A stretch of DNA of 64,000 nucleotides. Origin: Moorella sp. Hama-1 (GTDB taxonomy: Bacteria > Bacillota > DSM-521 > Neomoorellales > Neomoorellaceae). Within the stretch, counting starts at the first letter, position 1. Every line of letters begins with the position of its first letter. Below the pieces are notes generated by a model, which saw only the letters and a list, made by a program, of their open reading frames with translations, had not been told where the DNA came from and ran no database searches. A program made the translations under genes and the position numbers. Location: contig NZ_AP024620.1 of NCBI RefSeq assembly GCF_023734095.1, positions 1,050,501-1,114,500 on the forward strand, in the 5' to 3' direction. Below are positions 9,933 through 53,707 of the stretch, in pieces.

Positions 9933-11306
9933 ATGGCTAAACTTAAAACCCCCGCTTCCGCCCGGGAGGCGGCCCTGCAGGTCATTTACCGGGTAACCGA
10001 GGAAGGAGCCTACGCCAGCCTGGCCCTGGATGAGGTTTTAAGGGCAACCGGCCTGGAAGGCCGCGACAGGGCCCTGGCTACAGAATTGGCTTACAGTGCC
10101 ATTAAGGCCTGGGAGACCCTGGATTGGGCCCTGGGCCTTTTTTTACGGCAACCCCTGGCGAAACTCCCGCCCTGGATTCGTTCCCTCCTCCGCCTGGGAG
10201 CGGCCCAGCTACTCTATCTACCCCGCATACCATCCCGGGCAGCCCTTTACGAAACCGTAGAACTGGCCAAGAGATACGGCCACCGGGGGACGGTAGGCCT
10301 GGTTAACGGCGTCCTGCGCCACCTGGACCGGCGCAAGGACAGCCTGCCTTACCCCGATGCCCGGGAGGATCCGGCCGGTTACCTGGCGCGGCGTTACTAC
10401 CATCCCCGTTGGCTGGTAGAGCGCTGGCTGGGTGAATTCGGTTACCAGGAGACGGAGGCCCTCTGCCGGGCGGATAACGAACCCGCCCCTGCAGTTATCA
10501 GGGTGAACACCCTGAAGACGACCGGGGCTGCCCTGGCCGGACGTCTGCAGAATGAAGGGGCAACCGCCAGGCCGGCCCGTTATGCCCCGGAGGGACTGGT
10601 GGTTGAGGGCCTGGGGGCGGTGGAGAACAGCCCTTCCTTCCAGGAAGGGCTGTTCTACGTTCAGGATGAAGGCTCCCAGCTGGTCAGCCATGCTCTGCAC
10701 CCGGACCCGGGGGCCCGGGTAATTGATGCCAGTGCCGCCCCTGGTGGGAAGACGACCCACCTGGCCCAGTTAATGGGAAACCAGGGCCTTATCCTGGCCA
10801 GCGATGTCCATCCCCACCGCCTGGAACTGATCACCGCCAACTGCCTCCGCCTGGGGGTTACTTGTGTCCATACCATCCTGGCGGATGCCCGGGAGCTGGG
10901 GGAGGAATACCCGGAAACAGCCGATTACATACTCATCGATGCCCCTTGCTCCGGGTCAGGCGTCCTGCGCCGGCGGCCGGACGCCCGCTGGCGTAAGGAA
11001 CTCCCCCGCACCCGGGAACTGGCCCGGTTGCAGCTGGCCATCCTCAAGGGGGCCTGCCGGGCCTTAAAGCCGGGAGGGGTCCTGGTCTATAGCACCTGCT
11101 CCCTGCTGCCGGAAGAAAACCAGGAAGTAGTACGAGAGTTTTTACAACAGGCAAGGGAGTTTCAGGCGGATTCCCTGGCGCCATGGCTGCCGGGGCTGCC
11201 CCCGGATCTCCAGATGTCCGCCCGCCAAGGCCAGGTTCAATTTTTACCCCAGCGCCACGGGACAGACGGTTTCTTCATGGCCAGGCTAAAAAAACGAGTA
11301 AAATAA
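9933..11306 (+). CDS. rsmB: 16S rRNA m5C967 methyltransferase RsmB
   Basis: The 457-residue protein has an N-terminal NusB-like RNA-binding domain (about 1-140) and a C-terminal SAM methyltransferase. D-A-S-A-A-P-G-G-K-T-T-H-L-A (about 270-283) binds SAM. The two cysteines of m5C enzymes are in D-A-P-C-S-G-S-G-V-L (about 330) and Y-S-T-C-S-L (about 387). The ATG follows tggaggtcacag. The 115-base gap before it carries no gene. Confidence 0.94.
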   Translation: MAKLKTPASAREAALQVIYRVTEEGAYASLALDEVLRATGLEGRDRALATELAYSAIKAWETLDWALGLFLRQPLAKLPPWIRSLLRLGAAQLLYLPRIPSRAALYETVELAKRYGHRGTVGLVNGVLRHLDRRKDSLPYPDAREDPAGYLARRYYHPRWLVERWLGEFGYQETEALCRADNEPAPAVIRVNTLKTTGAALAGRLQNEGATARPARYAPEGLVVEGLGAVENSPSFQEGLFYVQDEGSQLVSHALHPDPGARVIDASAAPGGKTTHLAQLMGNQGLILASDVHPHRLELITANCLRLGVTCVHTILADARELGEEYPETADYILIDAPCSGSGVLRRRPDARWRKELPRTRELARLQLAILKGACRALKPGGVLVYSTCSLLPEENQEVVREFLQQAREFQADSLAPWLPGLPPDLQMSARQGQVQFLPQRHGTDGFFMARLKKRVK

Positions 11307-11372
11307 AGGATTTTGTCCTTGCATGCAGAATATGGTTGGAGGGATGTTCGGTAAACTGGGGGGAAGATATAG

Positions 11373-11879
11373 ATGGATATCATGCCCTGGACGGCCCTGG
11401 TTTTTCAGTCCATACCGGAAAGTATTATTTTAATTACCATGGGCCTTGGCCTAATTGGTCAATACCCCGGGATGAAGGGGATTATAGCAGTAGGGGTAGC
11501 AGGAGCTGTATTTTCTTATTTCTTCCGGCGTTTACCCCTTGACTTTGGGGTTCATACCCTGGCGCAAATGATGTGTTTAAGTTTACTTTTGTATTTTATT
11601 ATCAGGGTAAATTTTTTTGAAGCGATCCTGGCGGCTTTTTTGGGGATGTTGGCCGTGGGGATTGTTGAGGGCATATCCATACCTATAGTGTCATACATAA
11701 CGGGTATTAGTTTCGAAATAGCACTCCATGATCCATGGCTGAGGGTGCTCTTTCCTATCCCTGATGAATTAATCCTTGGAGTTGCGGCTTATCTCTGTCG
11801 AAGGTGGCGCTTTTCCCTCATCCCGGATGGTAGCTCACTGGTGAAACACTCCCGAAAGGAAAAGGAAGATGAAAAGTAA
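11373..11879 (+). CDS. multi-pass membrane protein, first gene of the agr-like locus
   Basis: I do not recognise a named family. The 168-residue protein has four or five hydrophobic helices (about 5-27, 33-51, 61-80, 82-108 and a weaker one at 131-146) and a very charged C-terminal tail (K-H-S-R-K-E-K-E-D-E-K). The ATG has a gggggaag site. It overlaps the sensor kinase gene by 11 bases, so the two are translationally coupled. Classical AgrC receptors carry six or so N-terminal helices in one chain, whereas the kinase here has only two. This protein could therefore be the detached sensing part of a split receptor. That is inference from size, topology and position. Confidence 0.7.
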   Translation: MDIMPWTALVFQSIPESIILITMGLGLIGQYPGMKGIIAVGVAGAVFSYFFRRLPLDFGVHTLAQMMCLSLLLYFIIRVNFFEAILAAFLGMLAVGIVEGISIPIVSYITGISFEIALHDPWLRVLFPIPDELILGVAAYLCRRWRFSLIPDGSSLVKHSRKEKEDEK

Positions 11880-12369
11880 AAGCTTCATCATGGTTATCCT
11901 AATTCTGGTTTTATTCCAGACCTTTTTAATCTGTTTGCTAAATCTTAGCTATTACGCTCAAAGCGTTTTCCCTATCTATCCCCTGGAAAAAACGCCAACG
12001 GCTATTTTAATTCTGTCATCCCTTCTATTATTAACTTCCCTGGGTATGATTTATGTTTTATTTACGGCCAGCAGCCGGGAGATGCAGCTCCTGCGCCAAG
12101 AAGTCTACATAACTAACCTGAAGGAGAGTATGAAGAGCCTGCGTGCCCAGCGTCACGATTTCATCAGCCACCTGCAAACGGTCTATGGCCTGTTGCAGCT
12201 GGGCATGCACGAGGCCGGACTGGAGTATATCGCCTCGGTATGTAAAGAAGTCCGCCAACCTACCCGGGTCATCGAGGTCAGCCAACCGGCCCTGGCCGGG
12301 CTTTTCCAGGCCAAGGCGGCGGCCATCGAGGCCCAGGGCGTCAGCTTCCAGTACGAGATCAACAGTGAC

Positions 12370-12374
12370 CTGAA
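12370..12374. repeat. target-site duplication, left copy
   Basis: ctgaa directly before the left end of the IS; the same five bases follow the right end at 14316-14320. Confidence 0.85.
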
Positions 12375-12399
12375 CCCGAGTTCGACAGTCCGAGGGCAC
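12375..12399. repeat. IS left terminal inverted repeat
   Basis: Outer 15 bases match the right end with one mismatch (position 3); positions 21-25 (ggcac) match again. Confidence 0.8.
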
Positions 12400-12465
12400 A
12401 TAAAAGTGCCTCAAATGTAGGCGCCAGAAGGCTTTTCGGTTCGTTCTGTGAAACATACCGTGTAA

Positions 12466-14160
12466 CTACATCGCCTGGCGTGGGTCCAGCTTGAAGAAGC
12501 GCGGGGGCTCTTCCACGCCCAGGGCGGAAAGGATCTGCCGCTGGAAGGTGGTGGTTTCGGTACGCTGCCAGACGGTGCCGGCAGGGCCAGCGAAGATGCC
12601 AAGGTGCATTCTATTCAGCTCATCCCTCAGCCGGGGCCAGGTGTAACGCTGGCCCAGCCTTCCTTCCACCCGCGTCTCGGCTACGCGGATGAGCAGGAGG
12701 GCCAGCCAGCATAAGAGGACGTGCGCCTCGATGCGCCGCGAGAGGCGGTGGTAGATAGGCCGCAATTCCAAGGCTTGCTTGAGGGTACGGAAGGCGGCTT
12801 CCACTTCCAGGAGTTGCTTGTAGCCCAGGGCGACGTCCGCGGGACTCAAGGTGTCATCGGAAGTGCGCAGCAGGTACTTGCCATCCAGGCGCTCATCCGC
12901 CTTGACCTTGGCCCGGTCGATCTGTGGCCAGCCTCTCTTGTCGAGCTTTAAGTAGCGGCCGTAGGTGGGGTGGGAGACCAGGCGGCAGACGGCCTTGCCG
13001 TGTTCTTTTTTATCCAGGCGGGCGAGCCCTTGCAGTTCCTGTTCCAGTTCTTTGAGCATCCGTTCCCGCTGTTCCCGGTCCCTGGCTTCTTCGTAAGGGT
13101 TGCGGACCAGGATATAACGCTTTCTGGCTTCCCCGTCGCCGACGATGATCTCTTTAACTTCCACGTTATCCTTGACCTTCTGGTAGCGGCCGGGACGGGA
13201 AAGAGCTTCTTCCACAGACGGTTTGCCAGATTGCATGCGTTCCCCGGCGATGTAATGGCCACCTGCCCGCTGCAGGGTGCGCAGGTTGTCCTCGGAGACG
13301 AAGCCCCGGTCCAGGACAGTGATTACCCGTCCCAGTTTCCAGCCCACCAGGTCCTTTTTCACCTGGTCGATGCGGGTGACGTCCGCCGTGTTGCCGGGCC
13401 AGACCCAGCAGCGGATGGGGATGCCTTCCCGGGTGACGGCCAGGCCAATCACTATCTGGGCAAGATCCGGCCGGTGGTCCTTGGAGTGCCCCCGCCGGCG
13501 GAGGAAGTACGCGGCGTCTCCTTCCTCCGGGTCCTCCCCCTCGACTTCGAAATAGGTACTGGTGGTGTCAAAGAACAACAGGTCAACCTCCAGGTTCAAG
13601 AGATGGGCCACGGAGAAGAAGACCTCTTCTTGCAAGGCGTCGCCGGCTTCCATGAGGACGTCCATGGCCCGGTAGAGCTGCTGCACTGCGATGCTTTCCA
13701 GACCAGGGATGGCGACGTCTCGTTCCACCCATGTCTCCACCGCCAGCTTGCTCTGCGGGTCCAGCGCCCGGTTGGCCGCCATGGCGAAGATGGCCCGCTC
13801 TACGGGGGTACGGAAGGCGCGGTCCTTGATCACCTTCCCGATGGCCCGGTCAATCCCAAGTTCGCACCAGAGAGCATCCAAAACCCAGGCGCCGCCCAGG
13901 GGACGACTCTCCTTGAAAAGGAGTGGAGCATCACCCACCTTGGCCTGCTGCTGCAGCACGTCCTCCGGCCCCAGGAAGCGGTTGATGCTGTCCACCAGCC
14001 GGCGCAAGGAATCCTTGTCTATCTCCTCTTCCCGGCCGAAGGACCAGAGGACCTGCGCCTGGGGCTTACGGGTTTCGGGGTCGCGGAAGTTGTGGGCCAA
14101 CTGCACATAGCGGACGACAGACCCGTCCTTGTTCTTGCGTTGCACGATTCGGATGTACAT
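12466..14160 (-). CDS. IS1634-family DDE transposase
   Basis: The 564-residue protein begins M-Y-I-R-I-V-Q-R-K-N-K-D-G, the typical N-terminus of IS1634 transposases, followed by W-S-F-G-R. Putative DDE residues: the first Asp in L-L-F-F-D-T-T-S (about residue 200), the second in V-I-T-V-L-D-R-G-F (about 285) and the Glu in L-E-V-E-A-A-F-R-T-L-K (about 455) before R-P-I-Y-H. The reading frame is intact. Long open frames on the opposite strand are shadows of this gene. Confidence 0.93.
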   Translation of the reverse strand: MYIRIVQRKNKDGSVVRYVQLAHNFRDPETRKPQAQVLWSFGREEEIDKDSLRRLVDSINRFLGPEDVLQQQAKVGDAPLLFKESRPLGGAWVLDALWCELGIDRAIGKVIKDRAFRTPVERAIFAMAANRALDPQSKLAVETWVERDVAIPGLESIAVQQLYRAMDVLMEAGDALQEEVFFSVAHLLNLEVDLLFFDTTSTYFEVEGEDPEEGDAAYFLRRRGHSKDHRPDLAQIVIGLAVTREGIPIRCWVWPGNTADVTRIDQVKKDLVGWKLGRVITVLDRGFVSEDNLRTLQRAGGHYIAGERMQSGKPSVEEALSRPGRYQKVKDNVEVKEIIVGDGEARKRYILVRNPYEEARDREQRERMLKELEQELQGLARLDKKEHGKAVCRLVSHPTYGRYLKLDKRGWPQIDRAKVKADERLDGKYLLRTSDDTLSPADVALGYKQLLEVEAAFRTLKQALELRPIYHRLSRRIEAHVLLCWLALLLIRVAETRVEGRLGQRYTWPRLRDELNRMHLGIFAGPAGTVWQRTETTTFQRQILSALGVEEPPRFFKLDPRQAM

Positions 14161-14290
14161 GCTTACGTTATTCGACGTATATTAGTTAATTCCTGCTATA
14201 ACATCCAAAATCGTGTGCCTACGGATTTTTGCATTTTCTCTACTTTTAAGCCCGGAAAGCCTTGATATTGCTAGATCGGGGTCCTGGCAT

Positions 14291-14315
14291 GTGCCTCAAA
14301 ACTGTCGAACTCCGG
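14291..14315. repeat. IS right terminal inverted repeat
   Basis: Reverse complement of this segment matches the left end, see the mobile element entry. Confidence 0.8.
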
Positions 14316-14320
14316 CTGAA
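14316..14320. repeat. target-site duplication, right copy
   Basis: ctgaa, identical to 12370-12374; in the kinase frame it provides codons L-K together with the next base. Confidence 0.85.
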
Positions 14321-14758
14321 GGACCTGCTACTGTCACCTCCGGATGCCACCAGCATCTTCGGCAACCTCCTGGATAACGCCCTGGAAGCTACCCTGGCGG
14401 GAAATCCGGGCGGAGAAAGGCGTATCTGGCTGCGGATTTTTAATGAGGGCAACTACCACTGCTTCGAGGTGGGCAATACCGGACCGGTCATCCCTTTAGA
14501 GCTGCAAAAAAAGATCTTCGCCCGGGGCTTTACCACCAAAAAAGTCGACCGGGAGAGCCACGGCCAGGGCCTCTACATAGTCCAGCAGCTGATAAAGGCT
14601 AATAACGGTAGGATTGAGGTTCATAGCAGCGACCAGGGTACCGTGTTTACCGTAAAATTTCCCATTTCTACAACTTAATTGGCGATACAAGCAGGAATTT
14701 CGGGAACCATGTAGAATAATATGGTAGAGTTAACAAAGTCTTATGGAGCAGGTAAGCC

Positions 14759-15403
14759 TTGCTAAGCATCCACCACCTCGCTCGCGACGGTGCTGTTTAC
14801 CTGGTGACCAGGTTACCGGCCGGTAGGAACAATAAGCCGGAGGTAGAAGTCGTAGCCTTCGGCCTGGAGGTCGCTCTGGGGGGCCTTCTCCAACTGGCCG
14901 TTTTCATCATTGTCGCCTGGTGCCTGGGTCTGGTACCGGAGATGCTGGTCGCCCTGGTGACCATGGCCGGCTATCGCCTCCCGGCCGGTGGCGTCCACTG
15001 TAGCGCTTATTACCGCTGCCTGCTTTTATCGCTGCTGACGTTGATCCTGCTGGCCCTGCTGGGCCGGGAGTTAGCCCTGGCGGCAGGGAAATACCTGCCG
15101 GTCCTGGCCCTGGCTGTGTTTGTCGTCAATTTGGTGATCGCCCGCAAGTGGGCCCCAGCGGCCGTGCCGGCAGCGCCCATCATCAATCCCCGGCGCCGCT
15201 CCCGGTTAAAGCAAATAGCTTATCTATGGTTAGCCGGGTGGTTGCTGGTCATGCTGGCCGGTTTCTACCTGCAATGGCCCCCGAGCCTTCTGGCCAGCAG
15301 CCTCCTGGCCCTGGTGGTCCAGGGGCTGGCCCTGACGCCAGCCGGTTTTGCCGTCATCGGACGGGCGGACTCCTTATTAAAGCGACTCCTACCTTTAGGA
15401 TAA
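14759..15403 (+). CDS. agrB: AgrB-like prepeptide-processing membrane protease
   Basis: The 214-residue protein has about six hydrophobic helices and the AgrB signature R-L-P-A-G-G-V-H-C-S-A-Y-Y-R-C. His80 and Cys87 are seven residues apart, as are the catalytic His and Cys of Staphylococcus AgrB (family knowledge). AgrB removes the C-terminal tail of the AgrD prepeptide and forms the (thio)lactone ring. The start is a TTG about 10 bases after ggag. It follows the kinase by 80 bases and precedes the agrD-like gene by 157 bases. Unlike the kinase, it is intact. Confidence 0.88.
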   Translation: MLSIHHLARDGAVYLVTRLPAGRNNKPEVEVVAFGLEVALGGLLQLAVFIIVAWCLGLVPEMLVALVTMAGYRLPAGGVHCSAYYRCLLLSLLTLILLALLGRELALAAGKYLPVLALAVFVVNLVIARKWAPAAVPAAPIINPRRRSRLKQIAYLWLAGWLLVMLAGFYLQWPPSLLASSLLALVVQGLALTPAGFAVIGRADSLLKRLLPLG

Positions 15404-15476
15404 AAAGACGAGAGAAGTCGCCTATGATGGCGGGCCGCAACCAGCGAACGGGAGAAATGAGAGGCAGGGCTTTTAT

Positions 15477-15501
15477 TTGAAACCGGCGTAGCCAGTTTCA
15501 A
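15477..15501. other. stem-loop in the agrB-agrD gap
   Basis: TTGAAAC / GTTTCAA (7 bp) plus GGC/GCC around a GTA loop, with one c-a mismatch between the two helices. No T run follows, so it is probably an RNA-stability or processing hairpin rather than a terminator. Confidence 0.45.
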
Positions 15502-15560
15502 CAAGCATCCCACCTCTCGCATCTCACTTCTCACATCTCATTTGAGGGGAGGTGATGCGG

Positions 15561-15695
15561 ATGTTTAAAAAGTTGACGGCGACCATGGTGACCCTGGGCG
15601 TCGCCCTGGCGGTCCTGGTGGCCAATGGCAGCGTTCTGCCGGCCAGTATCTGGCTCTGGCACCAGCCGGAGGTCCCGCCGAGCCTGCGTAGATAA
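15561..15695 (+). CDS. agrD: AgrD-like cyclic lactone autoinducer prepeptide
   Basis: This 44-codon gene is too short for routine ORF calling. The ATG at 15561 is 8 bases after gggagg; an ATG two codons earlier is too close to the site. The product has three parts. Residues 1-23 are a basic-hydrophobic membrane helix (M-F-K-K-L ...). Residues 24-34 are a core with S29-I-W-L-W33 then His. The C-terminal tail is P-E-V-P-P-S-L-R-R, the conserved P-x-V-P-x-x-L pattern cut by AgrB. The layout parallels clostridial AgrD peptides such as C-L-W-F-T followed by H-E-P-E-M-P (from memory). The ring nucleophile would be Ser instead of Cys, giving a lactone. It lies directly downstream of agrB and before a strong terminator. 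Confidence 0.82.
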   Translation: MFKKLTATMVTLGVALAVLVANGSVLPASIWLWHQPEVPPSLRR

Positions 15696-15721
15696 ATAAT
15701 GAGGTGAATGGCTATATAGAG

Positions 15722-15748
15722 AAGGGGAGAGATAACTCCCCTTTTTTT
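15722..15748 (+). terminator. terminator of the agr-like operon
   Basis: AGGGGAG / CTCCCCT around a 6-base loop, then TTTTTTT. Confidence 0.9.
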
Positions 15749-15835
15749 CATCCCATGGTGCCGGCGGGCCGGGATTGTGGTATATTATGGTATAGCTTCT
15801 TTTAGAAATAAGTATAATAAAGCCAGGAGATGGCG

Positions 15836-16900
15836 ATGACTACCAGAATCGATTTACGGGGGATGCTGCCTGCCGAACTGGAGGAACTGGCAGCCGGCCT
15901 GGGGGAGAAGCCCTACCGCGGCCGGCAGGTCTTTCGCTGGCTCCATGCCCGCCGGGCCAGGGAGATAGAGGCCATGTCCGATCTGCCCCGGGCCTTCCGG
16001 GCGCAGCTGGCTGCCAGGGCGGAACTACCCCCGGTCCAGGTCCTGGACCGCCAGGTGGCGGCCGATGGCCAGACGCGCAAATTACTCCTTGGCCTGGCCG
16101 ACGGTCAGAGTATCGAATGCGTGCTTATGGTTTATACCGGAGAACGCCGGCGCCATACTATTTGCCTGTCCAGCCAGGTGGGCTGCGCCATGGGCTGCAG
16201 CTTTTGCGCCACCGGCCAGGGGGGGATCCAGCGTAACCTGACCACCGGAGAGATTATCCTCCAGGCCCTGGCCCTGGATGCCGAACTGGAAGAGCAGGAA
16301 TCCGGGGGGTGCATCACTAATATCGTTTTTATGGGCATGGGGGAACCCCTCCTCAACTATGCGGCCGTTTTAAAAGCAGTCCGCATCTTTGAAGAACCGG
16401 CCGGGTGGGGGATAAGTCACCGGCGGCTGACCATTTCCACCTGTGGCATTGTGCCCGGCATCGAGCGCTTGGCGGGGGAAAAGCCACCCCTGGAGCTGGC
16501 TGTTTCCCTCCATGCCGTTACCAATGAACTCCGGACCCGCCTGATGCCTGTTAACCGGCGTTACCCCCTGGAGAGGTTGATTCCGGCCTGCCGCCGCTAT
16601 GCTGAAGTTACCGGGCGGCGGGTAACCTTCGAGTATGCCCTGGTGGCGGGGATTAACGACCGCCGGGAAGACGCCCGGGGTTTGGCCGGGCTGCTGGGGG
16701 GGATGCTGGCCTTTGTCAACGTTATCCCTTTAAACCCGGTGTCCGGTAGTGGGTTGCGGGGGGTCCCCCTGCCTGCAGCCCGGCGATTTGTGGCCTGGCT
16801 GCAGGGGGCCGGCCTGGAAGCAGCCATCCGGGAGAGCCGGGGAGCGGACATTGCCGCCGCCTGCGGCCAGCTACGCTACGCGTCCAGGGAGGTGTTATAG
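15836..16900 (+). CDS. rlmN: dual-specificity RNA methyltransferase RlmN (23S A2503 / tRNA A37)
   Basis: The radical-SAM enzyme methylates C2 of adenosine. The CxxxCxxC cluster motif is C-A-M-G-C-S-F-C (about 116-123). The C-terminal methyl-carrying Cys lies in I-A-A-A-C-G-Q-L. F-M-G-M-G-E-P-L-L-N is also present. I place the start at the ATG at 15836, 7 bases from aggag; an ATG six bases earlier overlaps the site. It opens a gene run through rpe with very short gaps or overlaps. Confidence 0.95.
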   Translation: MTTRIDLRGMLPAELEELAAGLGEKPYRGRQVFRWLHARRAREIEAMSDLPRAFRAQLAARAELPPVQVLDRQVAADGQTRKLLLGLADGQSIECVLMVYTGERRRHTICLSSQVGCAMGCSFCATGQGGIQRNLTTGEIILQALALDAELEEQESGGCITNIVFMGMGEPLLNYAAVLKAVRIFEEPAGWGISHRRLTISTCGIVPGIERLAGEKPPLELAVSLHAVTNELRTRLMPVNRRYPLERLIPACRRYAEVTGRRVTFEYALVAGINDRREDARGLAGLLGGMLAFVNVIPLNPVSGSGLRGVPLPAARRFVAWLQGAGLEAAIRESRGADIAAACGQLRYASREVL

Positions 16901-53595: not shown

Positions 53596-53707
53596 AACTA
53601 CCTTTCTCCTCAATTTAATCTTTTCAGTCATTTCCGGAAGGAATACTGCCTCCGACGTCGAATTAGTTATGGTTACAAAGATTGGCAGAGACAGGGAGGA
53701 GGAAGTA

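Follow-up and report, generated by a model that had tools for sequence, protein, structure and literature searches.

A recent IS1634-family insertion splits the kinase gene of an agr-type locus with a predicted two-gene receptor in Moorella sp. Hama-1

We analysed a 64,000-nucleotide window of the complete 3.32-Mb genome of Moorella sp. Hama-1 (bases 1,050,501–1,114,500; positions below are those of the window unless given as genome positions), in which a reading of the sequence had predicted an agr-type quorum-sensing locus whose receptor kinase is split by an IS1634-type element. Between positions 11373 and 15695, the gene for a 168-amino-acid membrane protein comes first; it is followed by a kinase gene that a 1941-bp element divides into a 5′ and a 3′ part, and then by agrB and agrD. 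No Rfam match was found in 11200–15850.

Both signal genes are intact, and profile searches bore out their assignment to the agr type. The product of agrB (14759–15403, + strand), a membrane peptidase for peptide processing and export, scored 105.9 bits against the Pfam AgrB profile PF04647 (cut-off 23; E = 2.1e-30), as befits the peptidase of an agr system, and is 60–75% identical to its Moorella orthologues. Beside it, agrD (15552–15695, +; start candidates GTG 15552, ATG 15555 and ATG 15561) encodes a 47-amino-acid prepeptide that scored 28.2 bits against TIGR04223 (cut-off 19). Alignment with orthologues places a Ser at the ring position of its core, LPASIWLWHQPEVPPSLRR. This Ser was present in 13 of 13 orthologous AgrD peptides (SIWLW, STWLW, SVLLW and others) where many AgrDs have Cys, which suggests that the peptide ring may be a lactone; the residues following it differ between species. 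The two signal genes are separated by a strongly folded copy of a dispersed repeat (15412–15551). This repeat of ~120–150 bp has at least 41 matches in the genome at 76–100% identity and forms a strong hairpin (approximately −55 kcal/mol for a single strand of 157 nt). Its position between the two signal genes is peculiar to this genome, the gap being short in relatives, and the repeat may thus alter signal output.

Promoters were sought with the pattern RNAGGAWWW-N11/12-RNNGAATWW, the sigma-H consensus of Bacillus. One match, AAAGGATTTTGTCCTTGCATGCAGAATAT (11305–11333, +), lies 5′ of the gene for the 168-amino-acid protein, as it also does in 5 relatives; another, GCAGGAATTTCGGGAACCATGTAGAATAA (14691–14719, +), lies between the kinase gene and agrB, 3′ of the element, at a position conserved in Moorella relatives and beyond. 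Genome-wide, the pattern occurred 82 times, compared with 3 times for the reversed pattern that served as a control. It also precedes spoVS (window position 53637, +) and an S30AE/hibernation-factor gene, both members of the sigma-H regulon in B. subtilis. On the basis of a consensus taken from Bacillus and of these known regulon genes nearby, the conserved motifs, which are enriched 5′ of genes, were assigned as sigma-H-type promoters. As the one 5′ of agrB is located downstream of the element, the insertion did not remove the promoter belonging to agrBD, in line with the prediction that signal production is intact, and the signal genes are probably tied to the stationary-phase transition through it.

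The element (12375–14315, −) is exactly 1941 bp long, with ends CCCGAGTTCGACAG and CTGTCGAACTCCGG that form imperfect terminal inverted repeats and were fixed by comparison of five copies. It is flanked by a CTGAA direct repeat (left copy 12370–12374, right copy 14316–14320, both +) and carries an intact gene for a 564-amino-acid transposase (12466–14160, −), antisense to the kinase, whose product matched DDE_Tnp_1 and scored 413 bits against the NCBIfam IS1634 model NF033559 (cut-off 100; E = 1.7e-123). The transposase, the terminal inverted repeats and a target duplication within the 5–6 bp of the family place the element in the IS1634 family, and its coordinates, matching ends and duplication agree with those originally described. 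A perfect sigma-H-type motif was also observed within the element (14168–14196, −), just 5′ of the transposase start and with very short spacing to its ATG, in 5 of 5 copies.

A search of the genome returned four further near-identical copies, so that the element is present five times at ~100% identity. All five have the 14-bp ends and a 5-bp duplication, and the duplications are all different (CTGAA, TCCCA, TGCAG, TCGAT and TAGAT). Besides the kinase gene, the copies occupy rsmG (GidB, E = 3.4e-37), a DAHP synthase gene and an open reading frame for a 440-amino-acid membrane protein, while the fifth is intergenic. The near identity of the copies, each with its own 5-bp duplication and three of the others in open reading frames, indicates that the element spread in a recent, general and untargeted burst that was not aimed at the kinase. 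As an observation in its own right, the interruptions of rsmG (16S rRNA methyltransferase; genome position ~3.317 Mb) and of the DAHP synthase gene (~3.192 Mb) mean that this complete genome has lost rsmG and possibly an enzyme of the aromatic pathway. Among relatives, the element was found as one 98% copy in one genome and as two pieces (95–96%) in M. thermoacetica DSM 21394. None of the relatives with the agr-type locus carries it at the kinase site, let alone with kinase halves that are independently conserved. Together, the four further copies with their own duplications and the uninterrupted kinase at the same place in relatives exclude a chance arrangement.

Removing the element together with one CTGAA copy yields a single frame of 288 codons, coding for 287 residues and a stop, that reads ...INSDLKDLLLS..., which reproduces exactly the predicted length and the SDLKDLL across the join. 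The joined protein is a kinase of the SpoOB/GHKL type, as had been proposed, with the Pfam domain SPOB_a in its 5′ half and HATPase_c in its 3′ half, and its alignment retains all catalytic features: the RHDF phosphoacceptor motif, the N box (GNLLDNA) and the G-rich boxes. Alignment with intact kinases shows that the 5′ part (11869–12374, +; SPOB_a E = 4.8e-17) encodes two hydrophobic segments, corresponding to two transmembrane helices, the SPOB_a dimerization and phosphoacceptor domain with RHDF, and the first strand of the ATPase domain; its frame continues into the element up to a stop at 12418–12420. The 3′ part (14321–14678, +; HATPase_c E = 7.3e-20), recognized also by its conservation, encodes the portion of the GHKL-type ATPase that begins shortly ahead of the N box, without the first strand, and its open frame begins within the element at TTG 14262. 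The insertion therefore lies 3′ of the first ATPase-domain strand and 5′ of the N-box helix, according to the alignment and a low-confidence model of the intact kinase that was built without an alignment and used for strand and helix order only (mean pLDDT 49.8). This position leaves an upstream piece with the histidine but no ATPase, and a downstream piece with an incomplete ATPase. The locus thus has a membrane histidine kinase of the right type for an AgrC, but in split form. Loss of the kinase is well supported. It is most likely a null, since the 5′ product lacks the ATPase and the 3′ part lacks a promoter of its own, a good start and the first ATPase strand.

We then compared the locus with that of genus-mates, including M. 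thermoacetica DSM 21394 (G006), M. mulderi, M. stamsii and M. sulfitireducens. The kinase is intact at this locus in 11 relatives (7 other Moorella and 4 other Moorellaceae genomes). The expectation of an uninterrupted kinase in related Moorella therefore held with one exception, the closest complete genome (G005; one contig, 2,527,564 bp), which is probably M. thermoacetica and which we take to be strain DSM 521. In G005, the kinase is split at approximately codon 32 by an element of the IS3 type, which has orfA/orfB-like frames and a CAG duplication. This element is unrelated to the IS1634-family element, is present in five near-identical copies in G005 and is absent from the Hama-1 genome. 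In a tree of AgrB and kinase sequences, G005 pairs with the intact G006, with Hama-1 outside both, which indicates that the two kinase losses are independent events; a shared ancestral insertion was rejected given the different element, the different codon and the intact G006 beside G005. The joined Hama-1 kinase and its G006 counterpart share 86% identity, and their dN/dS is ~0.07 (0.060 and 0.079 for the two halves), whereas AgrB (75%) and the 168-amino-acid protein (72%) are less conserved, some dS values being near saturation. The low dN/dS, alike in both halves, suggests that selection maintained the kinase until recently. A further decayed kinase of the same type was observed in another genome, where it adjoins an intact gene of the 168-amino-acid protein's family, without agrB nearby.

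The 168-amino-acid polytopic membrane protein encoded by the first gene of the locus (11373–11879, +) is intact in both genomes with a broken kinase. No Pfam or NCBIfam family was matched in 24 homologues, save for one spurious, weak and isolated match. At seven loci of other families, homologues are fused N-terminally and colinearly to a kinase; these fusions are 447–496 amino acids long, the part after the sensor aligns over the whole kinase, and SPOB_a and HATPase_c were confirmed in two of them. These fusions identify the protein as the likely sensor half of an AgrC-like receptor, and, judged from such comparisons, the receptor in this group consists of two genes, one for a membrane sensor and one for a SpoOB/GHKL kinase. 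The original description of a split receptor kinase thus stands for the kinase but does not extend to the receptor as a whole, whose sensor domain is a separate, intact gene here and fused only elsewhere. An AlphaFold2 model of the sensor (mean pLDDT 88.2) contains six or more helices. Foldseek returned no significant match with this model, and the best VIA-align hit was MprF (Z 6.6 over 92 residues), a score that may be without significance when the protein is a helical membrane protein.

Of 299 genomes of the phylum searched with a profile of the sensor, 102 contained relatives. In a second survey, we inspected 39 distinct sensor loci picked among the weaker profile matches. AgrB was encoded in the retrieved stretch at 36 of them, the exceptions including the locus with the decayed kinase described above. 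A kinase of the same type was present at 6 of the 39, whereas no kinase was matched at 20 (one of which lies at a contig end), and most of the remainder had larger, different kinases. Sensor-family genes near large kinases (527–691 amino acids) of another type were seen at six loci. The sensor is distributed as if it could pair with different kinases.

Within the window, no match to a response regulator profile and no AgrA-type LytTR protein was found. The LytTR regulators of the genome comprise two LytS-type partners, the regulator of a second agr cassette and one truncated piece. Neither an adjacent response regulator nor an orphan LytTR protein could be identified as the partner, as each of the two LytTR regulators that lie outside the agr cassette has a LytS-type kinase as its partner. 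M. mulderi (G003) and M. sulfitireducens (G004) carry the locus but have only two LytTR genes each, presumably LytS partners. The lack of an adjacent regulator here, and of an agr-type LytTR protein in some relatives, implies a partner encoded elsewhere, which is more likely to be a regulator such as Spo0A than AgrA. The sigma-H-type promoters and the SpoOB-type domain both point towards the sporulation network, to which the kinase output may be directed.

The second cassette lies at 2.2567–2.2597 Mb of the same genome and is complete, in the order sensor, kinase, LytTR regulator, AgrB and AgrD. It resembles the locus in the window in that the sensor, the SpoOB/GHKL kinase, AgrB and AgrD are in one run, but differs in having a LytTR response regulator, a peptide core of TSWLAW and no interruption. 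A kinase-less sensor–AgrB–AgrD module is located at 251.5–252.7 kb. Separately, the region at 2.236–2.270 Mb was seen to contain agr debris around this complete cassette, made up of fragments of sensor, kinase and AgrB genes together with four AgrD-like genes with the core TSWLAW; an IS21-like pair lies close by. Such debris was also seen in G005.

Taken together, the data are best explained by an agr-type locus with a two-gene receptor in which a random and recent IS1634-family insertion, rather than a dedicated switch, has nulled the kinase while the signal is still made; we assign this reading a probability of roughly 0.78. The 5′ product would retain the membrane anchor and the phosphoacceptor histidine without an ATPase, and the insertion would be a chance event that did not target the kinase. 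Transcription of agrBD by sigma-H at the stationary-phase transition would continue, and the peptide would still be made. With a null kinase and a peptide still produced, the signal would no longer be relayed through this kinase. The cell had been called signal-blind, a term that is probably apt for this channel and does not carry over to the whole cell, as the second complete cassette remains and kinase-less modules are common. Whether the cell is wholly blind depends on whether the sensor acts with another kinase, as the frequency of kinase-less sensor–AgrB–AgrD modules suggests it may.

A possible but doubtful alternative is that the locus is on its way to becoming a kinase-less module, in which the sensor, AgrB and AgrD remain functional, either with a different kinase or with none. 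The 20 kinase-less loci of the survey, together with those beside quite different large kinases, would fit such a transition, as would the presence of a module of this kind in the Hama-1 genome itself, the intact sensor gene in both broken genomes and the C. difficile Agr1 system, which works with agrBD alone (PMC8534292). Yet the kinase-less modules form a distinct and more distant sensor subfamily, and in the orthologous group to which this locus belongs, the kinase shows the highest conservation among the compared genes and is present in nearly all genomes.

Equally tentative is the proposal that kinase loss was itself selected, as relief from a costly response or through laboratory domestication, in the manner of agr-defective staphylococci and comP-broken natto strains. 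Two independent losses, both in the kinase, among 9 Moorella genomes with the locus lend it some weight, and there are precedents in the convergent agr frameshifts of S. aureus (PMC8768832) and in the insertion of IS4Bsu1 into comP (cited in PMC13432125). The kinase, however, accounts for ~40% of the combined coding sequence of the four genes, and two random hits would both fall in it with a probability of ~0.16 from gene lengths alone, so that selection aimed at the kinase was rejected for want of a significant bias. Moreover, the case was chosen because it is broken, and the burst of the element struck unrelated open reading frames too.

A broader and rather speculative extension would see in the 168-amino-acid protein an undescribed and widespread agr sensor family that acts as a detachable receptor, whether fused to a kinase, paired with one or without any. 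Moorella would then repeatedly discard the kinase while keeping the sensor and the sigma-H-driven signal, and the module would persist independently of the kinase.

The two kinase halves could in principle work in trans, with the anchored SPOB_a/histidine piece phosphorylated by a separately translated ATPase piece. In favour of this, the insertion separates the phosphoacceptor domain from the ATPase core, an open 3′ frame starts at TTG 14262, and trans-phosphorylation between separated domains is known for other kinases. We nevertheless consider such cooperation improbable, as the ATPase piece lacks its first strand (by the alignment and the low-confidence model), TTG 14262 has no good ribosome site, the gene of the element is oriented oppositely and the insertion is too young for selection on the pieces to be readable.

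Finally, the idea of a rare and reversible phase switch, in which precise excision of the element would restore signal perception, seems very improbable: although the frame is exact once the element is removed, and the element, itself intact, has recently been active, an in-frame empty site arises on paper from any insertion with a target duplication, no relative has the element at this site, no invertible or otherwise regulated feature was seen, and the idea found no support in this one assembly, where the same element also sits in rsmG, the DAHP synthase gene and the membrane-protein open reading frame. The sister species was struck by another element at another codon, and its loss of the same kinase makes the Hama-1 case look like a repeat of a known kind of loss rather than an obvious switch.

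A random insertion of this kind has close parallels. One is comP::IS4Bsu1 of Bacillus subtilis natto, described by Nagai et al. (2000; cited in PMC13432125). It resembles the Moorella locus in that an element with a DDE transposase lies within the receptor kinase of a peptide quorum-sensing system, and differs in that the system is ComQXPA rather than agr and that the insertion was observed as spontaneous instability in culture with a known phenotype. Agr-defective S. aureus likewise shows recurrent, short-lived and independent loss of agr within a species; those losses are mostly frameshifts in a canonical agrBDCA operon (PMC8768832), whereas here an insertion sequence hit a split receptor without AgrA. 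Clostridial agr loci without agrA and/or agrC, as in the acetogen C. autoethanogenum, for which loci lacking agrA are known (PMC8748961), and in C. difficile Agr1 (PMC8534292), share with this locus AgrB and AgrD with incomplete two-component partners nearby. In those loci, the receptor genes are absent or single (PMC8748961, PMC8534292), in contrast to the two-gene receptor found here, one gene of which is newly broken. Our literature search found no paper on an agr system in Moorella, and the acetogen agr literature that it returned concerned Clostridium.

Insertion into a quorum-sensing kinase and recurrent loss of agr are thus already known, and the event itself is ordinary; the unnamed, detachable sensor family is a more interesting by-product than the insertion. 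Moorella sp. Hama-1 would represent a natural strain with its receptor kinase switched off, in a genus of model acetogens, in which the making and the reading of the signal are separable, and the locus reveals the receptor of this group as a probable two-gene device with an unnamed sensor family.
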